12,473 nucleotides of DNA, taken from Candidatus Altarchaeota archaeon. Lineage in GTDB: Archaea; SpSt-1190. The notes beneath the pieces are model-generated. The model saw only the letters and a program-made list of their open reading frames with translations, had not been told where the DNA came from and searched no databases. The position numbers and the translations under genes were made by a program. How positions within the stretch are numbered: the first letter of the stretch is position 1; every line of letters starts with the position of its first letter. This document shows, in pieces, positions 458-12,473 of this stretch. The DNA is taken from assembly GCA_030590165.1 (NCBI GenBank), contig JAUUZA010000019.1, positions 1-12,473 of the forward strand, read 5' to 3'.

Positions 458-1030
458 GTCAAGTTCTTTGTGGAGGGCTTCACGCAATTTTTTAGGTATG
501 ATTTTATCAATTTCTTCAGGGGAAAGATAATTTTTATCGTAAATTTCTGTCATTACTTTTTCAATTTTATTGATTAAATCAAACATAATATTTGCGTCTT
601 TTTTATTTGTCACATTTGTTGAATAAGAAATTTTTATTCCTTCAACACTTTCACTCTTGGAATATTGTGTTCCCGGTGTAATGTCGGAATAATTTTCGAT
701 TGAGATTAATAAGTCATTATTCTTTTCAGAATTTAGTATTAATTCATAACCCCAAATATTTTTTTTTTCAAAGTTCTTTGCGTTTTCTAACGAAAGAATT
801 TGTTTTCCTCCATAAAAAACAAGGGATTCTTTTTCATCAAGACTGATTTCATCTATCTTGTTTAATTTTTTAGACAATTTTTTAGGGCCAATATAAGAAG
901 CAGTTCTTCCTCTTGCAGGAATTTCAGTGCCCATCGTTCTTGAAGTTCGAATTTTATGTTCTTTTTCAATTTCAATATTATACATATTGTTTCTTATTAT
1001 GAAACTTTTTAAGAGTTTAGAGAACTTCAT
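446..1030 (-). CDS. Unrecognised 194-aa protein downstream of alaX
   Basis: I do not recognise this protein. It is soluble and rich in Lys, Glu, Ile and Asn, with no membrane segment or signal. Residues 28-60 are basic and Gly/Arg/Ser-containing (IPARGRTASYIGPKKL). The middle looks beta-rich, and the last 45 residues are predicted helical and charged (SPEEIDKIIPKKLREALHK). It is the last gene of a minus-strand run. If AlaX is read to its full length, the ATG at 1030 overlaps the AlaX end by 14 bp, which suggests translational coupling. The start is uncertain: Met16 and Met33 are alternatives, and a TATA-like stretch near 975-983 would suit Met33. It ends with TGA, 12 bp inside the convergent DUF3850 gene. 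Confidence 0.6.
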   Translation of the reverse strand: MKFSKLLKSFIIRNNMYNIEIEKEHKIRTSRTMGTEIPARGRTASYIGPKKLSKKLNKIDEISLDEKESLVFYGGKQILSLENAKNFEKKNIWGYELILNSEKNNDLLISIENYSDITPGTQYSKSESVEGIKISYSTNVTNKKDANIMFDLINKIEKVMTEIYDKNYLSPEEIDKIIPKKLREALHKELDLIK

Positions 1031-1724
1031 AATAGAGGCGGCGATTTCCCCTTCCTTTGTTCTTGATTTTTACAACTTCAATTCTTCCAATTTCACTGAT
1101 GTCTGCAACATGTGGTCCCCCGCATGCTTGATATTCAATTCCCTAAATTTCAACAACACGAAGTTTTTTTACAAGTGGAGGAAGTTTGCTTGCAAGTTTA
1201 ATCATATTAGAATCTAAAAGAGCTTTTTCGCGTTCCACAAAAGTTATGATTACTTCAGCACCTTGTTCAATTAATTTATTTGCATCGCTTACCGCTTGTT
1301 CAATTAATGGGCGGTTCATTTCTTCAATAGTAAATCCCATATAACTTCCGTCAATTGAAACTTTTCCACTTCCAATTAAACAATTAGTTTTTTTGTGCAT
1401 CATTGCTTCGAGTAAGTGAGATGCAGTATGAAGTCGCATAAGTTTGTACCTTCTATTCCAATCAATTTCACCGTGTGTTTCCATTCCTTCTTTGATGCCG
1501 TCCATTTTATCAAGAGTATGAATTACTTTTCCGTTCGTTTCTGATACCTTTGTTACTATGAATTTTTTACCGTTTATGACAAGCATTCCAATATCATTTT
1601 GGACCCCGCCTTTTAATGGATAAAATGCACTTCGGTCTAAGACAACTCCGTTTTCAAGTACTTCAATAATTTTTGCCTCAAATCTTTTTTCATAATTGTT
1701 TTTCATGTGAAGGAGTTCGGTCAT
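1017..1724 (-). CDS. alaX: AlaX-type alanyl-tRNA editing protein with in-frame TAG at codon 194
   Basis: AlaX proteins are free-standing copies of the AlaRS editing domain that hydrolyse Ser or Gly mischarged on tRNA-Ala. The first 193 codons match the family: the MTELL start, YEKRFEAKI, the VVLDRSAFYPL strand, the Zn-binding HxxxH (H99 and H103 in RLHTASHLL) and a strand ending RVVEI. A TAG at 1143-1145 then interrupts. The same frame continues for 41 codons to a TAA at 1017-1019 and encodes the rest of the family: QACGGPHV with the C and H (codons 201 and 205) that complete the Zn site, then SEIGRIEV and a Lys/Arg-rich end. Without this part the enzyme lacks half of its zinc ligands. The usual GGGQPxD loop reads KGGVQND here. 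The start lies 7 bp after the upstream stop, so the gene is in an operon. Either TAG is read through or recoded, or this is a nonsense mutation or base error. Confidence 0.85.
1143..1145 (-). other. In-frame amber codon inside alaX
   Basis: On the minus strand the codons read GTT GAA ATT TAG GGA ATT GAA TAT. AlaX-type sequence continues on both sides of the TAG without a frame change. The position lies between the conserved VVEI strand and the CxxxH zinc motif, where homologs have an ordinary variable residue. TAG is one base from GAG, CAG and AAG, so a single substitution would also explain it. Confidence 0.85.
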
Positions 1725-1731
1725 TTAAGTT

Positions 1732-2823
1732 TTAATTTAGATTTTTTAAATAGCTTTTAGCTTCGCGAGCACATTCTTTTACATACGCTTGAATGTCTTC
1801 AATTTTTTTATAAAAATTAATTCCTTTTCTTGTATTTTTTTGTTTTTGAATTTCATCAAGTATTGATGGATGCTTTTCGGAAATAATTGGACGAATTCCT
1901 TTAGCATATTCTTTTCCAAGGTAAGCATAACTTATGGCATAACCTAGTGCATTGAAAAAATATTGGGGCATCGGCAGTTCCTGTTCTGTTAAAATTATTT
2001 CGAAAATATTTTTTCCATTTTCATGAAGTATTTGTTGTTGAAGATTATTTAATTGTAACAGTCGTTTTCTTGCTGATGAAATTAACCAATTAGCTTCGTT
2101 AAAATGATATATTACTTCATTTTTTGATGGAACAGTTTTTGCTTTTTCTTGAATTATTTTTGAATAATTATTTGGGTCATATATTATTTTGCCATTTTTG
2201 ACAAAATCCAAGTATATTCCGTCAACATTTTGGATGCCTTCTTCAAATCTTTTTTCATTCATTACATCAACATCCCATTCTTTAGGATATTGAATGTTTG
2301 AAGGGTTTTCGTTTTCTTTAATGAACCAAATATCAATATCTTGTCCCCATCCCTTTGTATAAAAAGTTCCATTCATTACAATAAAAATAGGGTTTTCTTC
2401 TGACAAAGTTTTGTAAATTAAAGACGGAATTTTTTCTTTGACTTTATTACTCAGAATTAGTGCGTATTCATCCGCTTTTTGTTCAAGAAATTTTTCAGGG
2501 TATTCAAGTTCAATTTCTTTTAGTTTTTGGTTATCTTGTAATTTAATAACTTGCAATAATTTTTCTTTAATGTTTTCTTGTTTGTAACAAGCTTCGTGAC
2601 CTACCTCATGAAGAACTTGAAAATATGTTGCATCCTCTCTCAAAAGAATTTCATGAATTAAATAAACTGCTTCGGACTTTCGTTTCTTAACGTTTCGTTT
2701 TTGTAATTCAGTTTCCCAATTTTCTTTGTTTATTATGGAAATTTCAGGTTCAAGTTGATGACCAAACAATTCAAAATATTGTTTTTTTGTTTCTTTAACT
2801 ACACTCGAAAGCCAAGCGGCCAT
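1732..2823 (-). CDS. HExxH metalloprotease - nucleotidyltransferase - HEPN-like fusion protein
   Basis: Three regions can be seen in this 363-aa protein. (1) Residues about 1-135 form a zincin-like metallopeptidase: LHEVGHEA (HExxH at 72-76) with EQKADEYA 38 residues later (E114, D118). This layout is like the ImmA/IrrE (DUF955) and M48-type gluzincins. (2) Residues about 140-225 resemble a minimal nucleotidyltransferase: a strand into NGTFYTKGWGQDIDIWFI (D162, D164), a further acidic strand DVDV (184-187) and the late strand YLDFVKNGKIIYDP. (3) Residues 238-363 are all-helical, like the HEPN partner of MNT toxin-antitoxin pairs. RPIISEKH (311-318) fits the RNase pattern Rx4-6H, although Pro follows the Arg. 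Family knowledge: MNT domains AMPylate HEPN RNases, and ImmA-type proteases cleave regulators. Joint action in one chain is inference. No signal peptide is seen, so it is likely cytoplasmic. It is the first gene of the minus-strand operon with alaX. Confidence 0.7.
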   Translation of the reverse strand: MAAWLSSVVKETKKQYFELFGHQLEPEISIINKENWETELQKRNVKKRKSEAVYLIHEILLREDATYFQVLHEVGHEACYKQENIKEKLLQVIKLQDNQKLKEIELEYPEKFLEQKADEYALILSNKVKEKIPSLIYKTLSEENPIFIVMNGTFYTKGWGQDIDIWFIKENENPSNIQYPKEWDVDVMNEKRFEEGIQNVDGIYLDFVKNGKIIYDPNNYSKIIQEKAKTVPSKNEVIYHFNEANWLISSARKRLLQLNNLQQQILHENGKNIFEIILTEQELPMPQYFFNALGYAISYAYLGKEYAKGIRPIISEKHPSILDEIQKQKNTRKGINFYKKIEDIQAYVKECAREAKSYLKNLN

Positions 2824-2842
2824 AAAGGTGTAACGACGATAG

Positions 2843-2852
2843 AATTAAAATA
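2843..2852 (-). promoter_or_regulatory. TATA-like box for the protease-NTase gene
   Basis: The minus strand reads TATTTTAATT, centred 25 nt before the ATG at 2823. This is the archaeal TATA-to-start spacing and suggests a leaderless message that begins at or next to the ATG. A second AT-rich box (TTTATATG, about 2871-2879) is an alternative that would give a leader of about 25 nt. Confidence 0.45.
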
Positions 2853-2929
2853 GTTACTTCTGCAATAAGTTACATATAAAAGTAATCAGTGAATTTAATT
2901 CCAAGCTTAAAAATATAGATGTGTAAAAA

Positions 2930-3130
2930 ATGAATGAAATTGAAGTCAGGAAATGGGGGTTTGCATTAAAAGATGAAATGAAAACTGCAAAGTTTTTCCG
3001 AGCTTCAAATCCAAAAGAGATTCCTGAAGGTGACTGGGGGCGATTTGGACAAGATAATCACCCAAAAAGCTCAATTGAAACTTCAGGACTTTTTTTTAAT
3101 TTTATTCCCTTTGATGCTAAAAAAAATTAA
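2930..3130 (+). CDS. 5' part of a frameshifted gene, paralogous family of 4412-5251
   Basis: This 66-aa frame ends at a TAA directly after a run of eight A's (3119-3126). The gene at 3187 continues in the -1 frame, which is open from 3121. Joining them adds LKISTNGNKTEIKHI, which lines up with HIKSEKPTELKIF in the paralog at 4412, just after a shared LFF motif. I therefore read 2930-3822 as one gene of about 297 codons. The N-terminal 48 residues (MNEIEVRKWGFALKDEM and on) have no counterpart in the paralog and I do not recognise them. The ATG at 2930 follows an AT-rich box (2908-2916). The cause is undecided: mutation, homopolymer sequencing error, or programmed -1 frameshifting on A-AAA-AAT. 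Confidence 0.55.
   Translation: MNEIEVRKWGFALKDEMKTAKFFRASNPKEIPEGDWGRFGQDNHPKSSIETSGLFFNFIPFDAKKN
3119..3128 (+). other. A8 run at the frame break (possible -1 slippery site)
   Basis: In the upstream frame the codons are GCT AAA AAA AAT TAA. The heptamer A-AAA-AAT has the X-XXY-YYZ form of a -1 slippery site, and the stop codon follows at once. Reading one base back enters the frame that runs to 3822. Adding one A to the run would do the same, so a homopolymer undercall is an equally good explanation. Confidence 0.5.
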
Positions 3131-3186
3131 AAATTTCAACAAATGGAAATAAAACAGAAATTAAACATATTGTTAAAGAATCAAGT

Positions 3187-3822
3187 ATGATTCCTTCTCT
3201 TTCAGTTATTGTAAAAAAAGAAACCCTCAATTTTTTTGCAGATTTTTTCCCATATGCTTATTCACAATATTATGGTGATTGGAATATTCCTTTGTGGCAC
3301 TATAAATCTCCATATTTTTTGAGTCAATTAGAGGTACTTTATGATATTTGGGTCGACAAACCCGTTTTTAATTTCAGTTCTCCTTATCCTCTTTATGAAC
3401 GATTTTCTGGGAAAACAGACGTGTTTATGCCACGTGGTATTTTTTATCCAACATGTTCAATGCGTTCTTTGAGTTTTAGGGGGACTGGGAAAATAAAATA
3501 TACAAAAGTAAATAATTATACATCTGAACCTGTGACTTTTAGATGGTTTGTACCTGATTCTTGGAAAGATAAAATTGGATGGATGGAAAATGGAAAAATT
3601 GTTCATCGAAAAGAAATACATCCTAAATTAGATGGCGGTTGGTCAATTCATCCTGTATTCATTGATGAATCCATCATAGAATTAAATGAATCGTTTATAC
3701 CGACATTATTAGTTGCTCAAGGAAATAATAGGATTGAATGGCAACCTATTCCCCTGTTTCCAGAACGTGAAAAAGGAGATTTTTTCTTAGACCCAAAAGA
3801 TTTGAATCCAAGAGTAGAGTGA
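3187..3822 (+). CDS. 3' part of a frameshifted gene; unrecognised family shared with 4412-5251
   Basis: I do not recognise the family, but this 211-aa stretch is clearly homologous to the gene at 4412. Shared motifs occur in the same order: WNIPLWHY (residues 32-39) with WEFPLYHY; GIFYP (84-88) with GIFYW; NNYTSEPVTFRWFVP (109-123) with YNFTAEPVTFKLFTP; and GNNRIEWQPI (179-188) with GENRMEWFPV. The protein looks beta-rich and aromatic, with no signal peptide or membrane segment. It is longer than the paralog between the last two motifs and has a charged tail after EWQPI. The ATG at 3187 is probably internal: the frame is open back to 3121 and meets the upstream fragment at the A8 run. T-rich stretches after the TGA may end transcription. 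Confidence 0.6.
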   Translation: MIPSLSVIVKKETLNFFADFFPYAYSQYYGDWNIPLWHYKSPYFLSQLEVLYDIWVDKPVFNFSSPYPLYERFSGKTDVFMPRGIFYPTCSMRSLSFRGTGKIKYTKVNNYTSEPVTFRWFVPDSWKDKIGWMENGKIVHRKEIHPKLDGGWSIHPVFIDESIIELNESFIPTLLVAQGNNRIEWQPIPLFPEREKGDFFLDPKDLNPRVE

Positions 3823-4034
3823 GATGCGATTTTTTGTTTTATTTCATAATTTATGGAATCGTGAGAATTATTATTAATTTCTTTAGATTTTTTTAAAATT
3901 GTTAACAAAATTATCTATATATTTTTTTTGGTGTCTTTAAGTTTGAACGGCTTCACGATTTTGTAGAATATAATAATTTAAAACTTTTATGAGTTTTTGT
4001 ATATATAAGTGACAACATCAAAATTAAAATTCAC
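3823..4034 (+). promoter_or_regulatory. Intergenic region with TATA box (4001-4007) before the 4035 gene
   Basis: I see no gene here. Oligo-T stretches just after the upstream stop (3828-3844) could act as an archaeal terminator. TATATAA at 4001-4007 is centred about 31 nt before the GTG at 4035, so transcription should start a few bases before the GTG. A perfect 8-bp inverted repeat, AATCGTGA (3857-3864) and TCACGATT (3953-3960), brackets a T-rich stretch; its role is unknown. Confidence 0.5.
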
Positions 4035-4415
4035 GTGACTAAGAGTTTTATGCAGTACCAAAAACTTCTTGGTGGGTATAGCGGACAATTCGGAGCTGTG
4101 GTTTCGAATGAATATAAGCCGATGAATAGTTATCTTGTTGAGCTTTGGAGTGGTCCGAGTTTTATGTCATCCAAGTATAATAAAGTTATGTTTGATGGGC
4201 CTCTATTTGGAGATTTAAGACTTAAAATGAGAGTTGACGATAATTTGATGAAAACTGATTATTATGACCCAACTAAAGGCCAACTGTGGAGTAAAACTAA
4301 TTTGCAACCGGACCATCATTATGATCCAAGTATTATGGATTTTTCTAATTTAGATTTGTCTAAGATAGATCTTCTCAAGTTGCACTTGGAATCGCTTGAA
4401 CTGCTGGGGCTTTGA
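4035..4415 (+). CDS. Unrecognised 126-aa protein
   Basis: I do not recognise this protein. It starts with GTG, chosen because it lies just below a good TATA box and opens the longest frame; Met6 (4050) is an alternative. The composition is soluble and aromatic: many Tyr, Met and Gly in residues 5-95 (YSGQFGAVVSNEYKP, FDGPLFGDLRLKMRVDD), a QPDHHYDP stretch near 92-99, then a leucine-rich amphipathic end (DLSKIDLLKLHLESLELLG) that may form a helix for dimerisation or partner contact. The stop TGA (4413-4415) overlaps the TTG start of the next gene, so the two are probably translationally coupled and may work together. Confidence 0.6.
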   Translation: MTKSFMQYQKLLGGYSGQFGAVVSNEYKPMNSYLVELWSGPSFMSSKYNKVMFDGPLFGDLRLKMRVDDNLMKTDYYDPTKGQLWSKTNLQPDHHYDPSIMDFSNLDLSKIDLLKLHLESLELLGL

Positions 4416-5251
4416 AGGTGAAGAAACCCCTTTTTCTTTTTCCTTCCATTCTGAAAGAGAAATATAAGACACTTGAGAAACGTCATATGAAGTCATTGCC
4501 TTATCGCGGAAAAAAAATAAAGGTTTATAGTAAGTTAGAACACGGGAGTTCAGTTAATCACCTTGATTTTGATGTTGTTGATTTATTTTTTCCTTTGCTT
4601 GAAAACATCCATATCAAATCCGAAAAACCTACTGAGTTAAAAATATTTTTACCTGATTTTGCAAAAAAGTTGTTAAAATTTGAATCTGAAAAAAAAGAAG
4701 TAGATTTATCAAAAAAGATAGTTTTTCAAGGAGAATTTAAACTTACAATAACGGCTTCAAAATCTAAAGGGAAACTTCTTGGAGTTATTCCTGTTCTTTA
4801 TTTTTTAAAAACTGAAGAAGAAGCGTTTATGTGGGGGGTGCCTATCCCTATTTTTGTTGAGTCAACTAAATCTGGTTGGGAATTTCCGCTTTATCACTAT
4901 TTACATCCAAAAGCTGAAAATTATTTATTACCTCTTTTGGCGAAAGAATATTCAAAAGAACATTCAGAAATTTTTAATTTACTTTTTCCTTATTCTAAAA
5001 AATTTGTGAAACATGGGGATAAGTATTTTACAGATGGAATTTTTTATTGGATTCTTAATGCGCGAGAAGGGGAAAGAAAAACATATTTGTATAATTTTAC
5101 TGCTGAACCAGTTACTTTCAAACTTTTTACTCCGTCAGGGATTAAGGAAGTTGAAGTACTTGGGGATTCAAGGGAGTATTATGAACTTCCTGAAGACCTT
5201 CAATTTGTTGTTGCAATTGGGGAAAATAGGATGGAGTGGTTTCCCGTATGA
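4412..5251 (+). CDS. Unrecognised 279-aa protein, paralog of the split gene at 2930-3822
   Basis: The family is not recognised. This appears to be the intact paralog of the split gene upstream. Shared motifs are WEFPLYHY (156-163), GIFYWI (209-214), YNFTAEPVTFKLFTP (227-241) and the terminal GENRMEWFPV (270-279). Unlike the paralog, it has an extra basic N-terminal half (residues 1-55) and an inserted KYFTD before GIFY. It looks cytoplasmic and beta-rich, with no signal peptide and no obvious catalytic Asp/His/Cys cluster. The start is uncertain: TTG at 4412 overlaps the previous TGA, and GTG at 4418 is two codons later. Past the TGA the same frame stays open for 13 codons and repeats the end of the gene (LECFPV), a small local duplication. 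Confidence 0.65.
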   Translation: MKVKKPLFLFPSILKEKYKTLEKRHMKSLPYRGKKIKVYSKLEHGSSVNHLDFDVVDLFFPLLENIHIKSEKPTELKIFLPDFAKKLLKFESEKKEVDLSKKIVFQGEFKLTITASKSKGKLLGVIPVLYFLKTEEEAFMWGVPIPIFVESTKSGWEFPLYHYLHPKAENYLLPLLAKEYSKEHSEIFNLLFPYSKKFVKHGDKYFTDGIFYWILNAREGERKTYLYNFTAEPVTFKLFTPSGIKEVEVLGDSREYYELPEDLQFVVAIGENRMEWFPV

Positions 5252-5293
5252 TGGAGTATGTTAGAGTGTTTTCCAGTTTATAATGAGTAATTT
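5252..5293 (+). repeat. Imperfect duplication of the 3' end of the preceding gene
   Basis: After the TGA at 5249-5251 the same frame encodes WSMLECFPVYNE and then TAA. LECFPV echoes the true end MEWFPV, and at DNA level GAGTGgTTTCCcGT is echoed by GAGTGtTTTCCaGT. This looks like a short slippage duplication, after which the stop arose in the first copy. Confidence 0.35.
5277..5284 (+). promoter_or_regulatory. TATA-like box before the DUF357 gene
   Basis: TTTATAAT is centred about 36 nt before the GTG at 5317, placing transcription start near 5305-5308 with a leader of about 10 nt. Confidence 0.4.
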
Positions 5294-5316
5294 AAATCAG
5301 TGTGATGTTTTGAAAT

Positions 5317-9087: not shown

Positions 9088-9966
9088 GTGTGTTTAACTT
9101 TCTGTTCAGTGGGAAATGAGAAAGTGGAAAAATTATTAAATAATTTTTCGTGTGGGGGTTCTTTAGAGCAGATTTACATAGGTGATGTAACCGATTTTGA
9201 AATAAAACACATCTTTTTTCCAGAACCTTCAAAAAAAAATAAAAAAATTTTAAAAAATTTTCTTGACCATTGTTTAGATATGGTTAATGAATCTGTTTGG
9301 GGTAACCGAAATAAAGAGTGCTCAGGGATTCTTTCTTCCTTTGGTTCTTTTGATAAAAATAAAGCAATAAGGGGGGGAGTAGGGAGAATTTATTCAAAAA
9401 AGAATGAAATTTTTGAAACGAGTAAGGTGGAGACTCGCGTTCGTATTGATAAGAGGAGAAATCTTTATGACCTCCAAATGAAAGTGCTTGTTGAAGAAAA
9501 AATGAAAAAGAACCCTTTTGAAAGTTATTTTGTAATTGACAAGATTTTATCTGATTATAAACAGAATGAGAAATATATCAATCTTTTTTGGGGAGATATT
9601 ATTAGGCCAATTACTAAAGTAGAAGAACTTCACGATTTTGTAAATTGTTCTACATATGATGTTTTTGTAAATAATGGGGTTTTGAATAAAAGACAAGCGA
9701 CTGCTGAAGAAGTTTTTTGTCATGTACATGAAAATTATGGTAAAAAAATTTTATCTTCCTTTGGGAGTAATTTACTTTTTTATGAATTTTATTGTGTTTC
9801 AAAAGAAGTTCCTGAAGCTAAACAAGATAAAAATTACTATATCTTCATTGTTGATTTAGATTCTAACGAATTTGAGATGTTTGAAAATTGGCCAACCAAG
9901 AAAGTTAAGAATAAAAGGTCTATTTATGCTAATTCTTGGCTTTTGAGGAAGAGAAAAAATTTATAA
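9088..9966 (+). CDS. Unrecognised 285-292 aa protein X, source of the duplicated C-terminal tail
   Basis: I do not recognise this protein. It is soluble, aromatic and Lys-rich, with mixed helices and strands and no signal peptide. Visible pieces are FFPEPSKKNKKILKNFLDHC, a Gly/Arg-rich stretch RGGVGRIYSKK (about 96-106) and FWGDIIRPITKVEELHDFV. The C-terminal 38 residues (FEMFENWPTKKVKNKRSIYA, then NSWLLRKRKNL) recur as the tail of the secreted protein at 11954. GTG at 9088 opens the frame, but GTG at 9109 fits the TATA-like box better. The stop lies 20 bp before CC, so X, CC and Y probably form one operon. Residue 255 onward (base 9851) lies in the duplicated DNA. Confidence 0.6.
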   Translation: MCLTFCSVGNEKVEKLLNNFSCGGSLEQIYIGDVTDFEIKHIFFPEPSKKNKKILKNFLDHCLDMVNESVWGNRNKECSGILSSFGSFDKNKAIRGGVGRIYSKKNEIFETSKVETRVRIDKRRNLYDLQMKVLVEEKMKKNPFESYFVIDKILSDYKQNEKYINLFWGDIIRPITKVEELHDFVNCSTYDVFVNNGVLNKRQATAEEVFCHVHENYGKKILSSFGSNLLFYEFYCVSKEVPEAKQDKNYYIFIVDLDSNEFEMFENWPTKKVKNKRSIYANSWLLRKRKNL

Positions 9967-10078
9967 TTCAGTAGTAACTAATCCTAATGAGTGATAGAAT
10001 GACTGATAAAAAATATACCTCAGAAAATAAAGATAAACCAAGTATTCTCGATCCTTTTTTAATAAAAAAAACGATTAC
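9851..10078 (+). repeat. Direct repeat, copy 1 (X tail, spacer, start of CC)
   Basis: These 228 bases match 12246-12473 base for base at a constant offset of 2395, except at 9858 (A; T in copy 2) and 9958 (A; G in copy 2, Asn to Asp). The match may continue past the right edge, because copy 2 is cut by the window end. It stops abruptly on the left in both copies. Confidence 0.95.
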
Positions 10079-11953: not shown

Positions 11954-12361
11954 GTGAGTAAGTTTATTGTGGGAAGACAGACAATATTTTTATTCGGTTT
12001 TCTTTTTATGATTTTTAGTTTAGTTTTTGCTTTCTCAGAATGTCATCTTAGTTCTTCTTATTGTTGTTCTGATTGTGTTATTGACGATTGTTCAGATGAT
12101 TATAATCCTTCCGCACTTTCTTGTGGTAATAATTATGGGTGTTCAAGGATTGCCAGTGAAAAAGGTTATCAAAAGAATTGTCTTGCTGGTGTAACCTGTA
12201 ATTATAATAATAAAGGTAAAATTGCAAGAAATTTATTGGGTGGCTTTGATTTTGATTCTAACGAATTTGAGATGTTTGAAAATTGGCCAACCAAGAAAGT
12301 TAAGAATAAAAGGTCTATTTATGCTAATTCTTGGCTTTTGAGGAAGAGAAAAGATTTATAA
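11954..12361 (+). CDS. Secreted Cys-rich protein Y fused to the C-terminal tail of X (chimera)
   Basis: This 135-aa protein starts at GTG. Residues 1-28 form a signal peptide or membrane anchor (a polar start, a hydrophobic core IFLFGFLFMIFSLVFAF, then SEC). Residues 30-82 contain nine cysteines (30, 37, 38, 41, 46, 57, 63, 76, 82), including CC-x-x-C and C-x-x-x-x-C spacings, as in disulphide-stabilised exported modules. From codon 98 the sequence is the tail of X (SNEFEMFENWPTKKVKNKRS and on), which is basic and looks cytoplasmic. The join is in frame at about 12246-12254. I infer that the natural Y gene is longer with a different C-terminus, and that this is the duplication joint. Whether the chimera is made or stable is unknown. 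It lies 26 bp after CC. Confidence 0.65.
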   Translation: MSKFIVGRQTIFLFGFLFMIFSLVFAFSECHLSSSYCCSDCVIDDCSDDYNPSALSCGNNYGCSRIASEKGYQKNCLAGVTCNYNNKGKIARNLLGGFDFDSNEFEMFENWPTKKVKNKRSIYANSWLLRKRKDL

Positions 12362-12473
12362 TTCAGTAGTAACTAATCCTAATGAGTGATAGAATGACTG
12401 ATAAAAAATATACCTCAGAAAATAAAGATAAACCAAGTATTCTCGATCCTTTTTTAATAAAAAAAACGATTAC
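12246..12473 (+). repeat. Direct repeat, copy 2, running off the window
   Basis: This is a copy of 9851-10078 with two mismatches (12253, 12353). It contains the X tail (to the TAA at 12359-12361), the identical 20-bp spacer, and the first 92 bases of CC. It is the right-hand boundary of the 2395-bp unit and continues to the last base of the window. Confidence 0.95.
12382..12473 (+). CDS. Second copy of the CC gene, N-terminal fragment
   Basis: An ATG at 12382 opens a frame identical to the first 30 codons of the CC gene (MSDRMTDKKYTSENKDKPSI and on) and is cut by the window edge. The preceding 20-bp spacer is the same as before the first copy. Its existence implies at least two tandem CC genes, unless the assembly is chimeric here. 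Confidence 0.8.
   Translation, partial: MSDRMTDKKYTSENKDKPSILDPFLIKKTI

Follow-up and report, generated by a model that had tools for sequence, protein, structure and literature searches.

The alaX frame and its zinc site

The window, the whole stretch of 12,473 nucleotides that was analysed, is an entire contig (C3) of a 724 kb genome that is divided over 64 contigs and is 87.6% complete. On its reverse strand, positions 1017–1724 hold alaX, a frame for an AlaX-M type alanyl-tRNA editing protein that is interrupted by one TAG. The translation runs through 193 codons (1146–1724, −), the TAG as codon 194 (1143–1145, −) and a further 41 codons (1020–1142, −) before a terminal TAA. If the TAG terminates, the product is the 193-codon portion, short of about the final fifth of the protein; if it is read through, the product has 235 amino acids. 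Towards the other end of the window, positions 9851–10078 and 12246–12473 form a 228-base direct repeat (99% identical), the second copy of which stops exactly at the contig end; this is likely an assembly break at the repeat.

Both parts of the alaX frame carry family-type coding. The Pfam domain tRNA-synt_2c is matched upstream of the TAG (E 3.4e-13), and the match to tRNA_SAD (residues 188–231, E 6.3e-13) requires read-through, most of it sitting in the 41 codons past the TAG. The NCBIfam AlaXM score is 194 bits for the part before the TAG and 262 bits with the tail. Though AlaXM is the best-scoring family, 262 bits lies below its curated cut-off of 300, and for this reason the frame is described as being of the AlaX-M type without being called a certified equivalog. 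Of the solved chains, 2E1B (Pyrococcus horikoshii AlaX-M) comes nearest; this protein appears as AlaXp-M in PMC11295145.

Two features of an AlaX-M protein are present in the read-through product: an AlaRS-type editing domain bearing the SAD segment, and the motifs HxxxH and CxxxH. The first half of the zinc site is HTASH (residues 99–103; 1416–1430, −), whose His 99 and His 103 are invariant across the family alignment. The second half, CGGPH (residues 201–205; 1110–1124, −), is common to all five same-family relatives and is lost if the TAG terminates. In most of the remoter archaeal homologues, the corresponding motif is DGGTH or DGGPH, so that Asp replaces the Cys ligand in many AlaX-M type proteins.

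An earlier, sequence-only reading had described a single TAG with family-type coding on either side, and had placed the Cys and His that complete the zinc site in the 41 codons beyond it. Both points are borne out by the translation, the Pfam matches, the gain in AlaXM score and the relatives; judged from these comparisons, the two-sided coding far exceeds chance. Re-initiation downstream of the TAG was rejected as a route to the tail, which lacks a usual start codon (no ATG, GTG or TTG was found in frame).

The 193-residue protein might itself be a functional short form. Short forms exist (AlaX-S, PMC11295145), and several archaeal matches to alaX cover the first 160 residues only. Termination at the TAG, however, removes the conserved SAD segment and, with CxxxH, half of the zinc site. 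No such truncation occurs in any of the five same-family genes, and a functional short AlaX is extremely improbable.

The TAG position in related genomes

Five same-family genomes (those with a name are Candidatus Altiarchaeota) have an alaX without interruption, which aligns over both halves with 55–63% identity. The nearest labelled homologues, found by an alignment-based search, come from metagenome-assembled genomes (MAGs) tagged Candidatus Altiarchaeota and from one tagged as archaeon only; searching genome_contigs with the single AlaX sequence gave no close relative, but the alignment query did recover the family relatives. Four of the five genes have Glu (GAG or GAA) at the position of the TAG and the fifth has Thr. 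Among this set the TAG is thus restricted to the present genome, and it is one or two bases away from the codons of the relatives.

The tail beyond the TAG is 66–73% identical to those of the same-family relatives, compared with 53–61% for the body. The resulting tail/body ratio is 1.12–1.25 for this gene and 0.92–1.13 between the relatives, values that point to a tail without decay. This in turn implies that the nonsense change, if it is a real one, must be recent.

A conserved tail would also suit programmed read-through, in which near-cognate tRNAs decode the TAG of alaX alone and yield a little full-length enzyme. Read-through was among the possibilities raised from the sequence, but the RNA fold downstream of the TAG is not unusual (z = −0.95), and the stop is absent from every relative, so that a read-through site is not conserved; such a mechanism is highly unlikely.

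Two further observations concern related loci. On contig C38 (L111, ~4538–5146) of G024, an unrelated 500 kb genome with no PylS match over the cut-off, another AlaX-like gene of an archaeon is interrupted by a single TAG in frame, though not at the position seen in the window. In two relatives (L112 and L115), alaX and a DUF357 gene are divergent neighbours with a gap of ~50 bases. In the window ~3.6 kb (1732–5316) separates the two, including a gene for 363 amino acids that carries the motif HEVGH, as well as two large ORFs without a Pfam match; the gap varies in L114 and L116 as well.

Use of TAG across the genome and other interrupted genes

The sequence-only reading had raised amber suppression or recoding as an amino acid such as pyrrolysine. 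In that case a tRNA dedicated to TAG would insert an amino acid (pyrrolysine or another) and AlaX would be made at full length; the conserved coding on both sides and the undecayed tail count in its favour. TAG usage was counted in a ~510 kb sample of genome stretches, over ORFs of at least 100 amino acids. TAG terminates 67 of these 508 ORFs (13%), and the median in-frame open extension past the stop is 7 codons for TAG, 7.5 for TAA and 7 for TGA. For 32 genes that end in TAG, a homologue was found among three relatives; 24 of the 32 end within 10 residues of the homologue end. Thus, by both measures, no depletion of TAG as a terminator is seen. The genome also encodes the release factor aRF1.

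A dedicated decoding apparatus was sought in the rest of the genome. None of 45 tRNA genes has a CUA anticodon (ARAGORN, on the stretches with the 44 genome-wide Rfam tRNA matches, at 87.6% genome completeness). A PylS profile search gave nothing over the cut-off in this genome or in six family relatives; a control panel gave one match over it. The matches in the genome and its relatives are weak, below the cut-off and within long open frames, presumably the pattern that other class II synthetases would give. The pyrrolysine system was rejected on these grounds: no PylS over the cut-off, no CUA tRNA and TAG as a common terminator. In addition, the Glu of the relatives marks an improbable site for pyrrolysine.

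TAG therefore acts as an ordinary stop in this organism. The ~12% of the genome that is missing is a caveat to the tRNA and PylS tests and not to those of TAG usage and gene ends; that part could contain a gene for a suppressor tRNA. A lineage without pyrrolysine might still translate a few TAGs, those of alaX and of a Memo-family gene (see below), through an undetected suppressor tRNA while TAG remains a stop elsewhere. This narrower version is highly unlikely, and no report of suppressor tRNA genes in archaeal MAGs was found in the literature.

The earlier reading had also called for a count of in-frame TAGs in conserved genes. Read-through frames were compared with the genes of relatives. 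A loosely filtered first search was swamped by antisense shadow ORFs and gene-level filters were adopted; the matches below ~90 bits that remained look like such shadows and were excluded by eye. In ~510 kb, five conserved genes contain a single in-frame stop, two of them TAG and three TAA. Four are clean and supported on both sides, namely alaX (TAG, 1143–1145 of C3), a Memo-family gene (TAG, C35 ~32,447), a phosphohexomutase-like gene (TAA, C8 ~16,146) and a small conserved protein (TAA, C56 ~4,356). The fifth, CTP synthase, identified from its sequence, has a TAA close to where contig C56 ends (~30 bases). By the same method, zero or very few interrupted genes were found in the relatives, for which the samples were smaller.

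Random nonsense changes at this codon usage would give 53% TAA, 28% TGA and 20% TAG, and at least two TAGs among five interruptions are then unexceptional (p = 0.26 under an expected TAG share of 0.20). In-frame continuation is found in 2 of 32 TAG-ended genes and in 3 of 247 others (Fisher p = 0.10), a slightly higher share that gives a weak hint of TAG bias. The interruptions are not TAG-specific and fit the expected nonsense spectrum. This mixture of TAA and TAG, which extends to a core gene in CTP synthase, indicates consensus errors or scattered nonsense alleles and not a redefined codon. The Memo-family gene, with its own single in-frame TAG, is a point in favour of decoding as an amino acid; but in-frame TAA stops are equally frequent in conserved genes and, with intact codons in the relatives and TAG in normal use as a stop genome-wide, the pair of observations that the sequence-only reading had itself named as contradicting it, decoding of the alaX TAG as an amino acid is extremely improbable.

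A gene of a different kind was seen in G001 (contig C11, L146, 16280–16906): it is ATPase-like, is interrupted by one TAG and one TGA, has a small duplication within it and looks like a true pseudogene.

Probable origin of the TAG, presumed loss of AlaX and known systems

The TAG in alaX is very probably an ordinary stop that arose by a single-base change, either as a nonsense allele of recent origin or as a wrong base in the metagenome consensus, as the sequence-only reading had allowed among its alternatives. This explanation is supported by the intact genes of the relatives, the normal use of TAG, the failure to find PylS or a CUA tRNA, and the single TAA stops elsewhere in the genome. Counting against it are the tail without any decay, the second conserved gene, of the Memo family, with a clean single TAG, the slightly higher share of in-frame continuations in TAG-ended genes and the incompleteness of the genome.

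From the assembled sequence alone, the two branches of this explanation, mutation and base error, are inseparable. That the base is simply miscalled, and the cell's own alaX intact, has about an even chance. An error of this type is suggested by the number of interrupted conserved genes in ~510 kb, CTP synthase among them, relative to zero or very few in the smaller samples of the relatives, by the closeness of the CTP synthase stop to a contig end and by the fragmentation of the assembly. True recent nonsense alleles would, however, appear identical, and this genome shows few breaks of the frameshift-like type (two).

In the case of a real mutation, the course of events may be outlined as follows. 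The archaeon, which has a small genome and comes from a family that holds Candidatus Altiarchaeota MAGs, would have had an ordinary gene for AlaX-M editing until a single-base change to TAG broke it. Termination there would yield the 193-residue product without the SAD segment and the CxxxH zinc half, which, judged by its motifs, is presumably inactive; a loss of AlaX activity in this form is what we infer. Working in trans, AlaX removes Ser- and Gly-tRNA(Ala), a task that it shares with the editing domain of AlaRS (PMC11295145). Contig C35 encodes an intact AlaRS of the archaeal kind whose editing motifs are HTAVH and CGGTH, and this housekeeping enzyme, with its own editing domain, could take over proofreading. 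The presence of an AlaRS with its own editing site makes loss of AlaX plausible, and such a loss should be tolerated.

The same genome (G000) has a second, bacterial-looking AlaRS of ~940 amino acids on contig C23 (L104, 3.6 kb), besides the archaeal one; its G+C of 0.323 is like that of the genome, and it is due either to contamination or to transfer.

Translation of the TAG in alaX would newly add a small-genome archaeon to the cases in which a stop codon has two uses, but the evidence opposes it. The main lesson is that, before recoding is proposed for an isolated in-frame stop in a MAG, all three stop codons and the gene ends of relatives should be taken into account.

Among known systems, the AlaX-M trans-editing proteins (2E1B; NCBIfam NF040865) resemble the gene described here in domains, read-through length and the HxxxH/CxxxH motifs; it differs from them in the one in-frame TAG ahead of CxxxH and in its sub-cut-off AlaXM score. 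As in pyrrolysine-encoding archaea (pylTSBCD, with TAG in methylamine methyltransferase genes), a TAG stands in frame within a gene of an archaeon; here, however, neither PylS over the cut-off nor a CUA tRNA was found, TAG commonly serves as a terminator and alaX does not encode a methyltransferase. With nonsense alleles and consensus errors in MAGs, from which no feature was found to distinguish it, alaX shares both the single stop in a conserved gene and the mixed stop types genome-wide; the case is an ordinary one, that of a gene of known kind with a single nonsense change or an error of the consensus.
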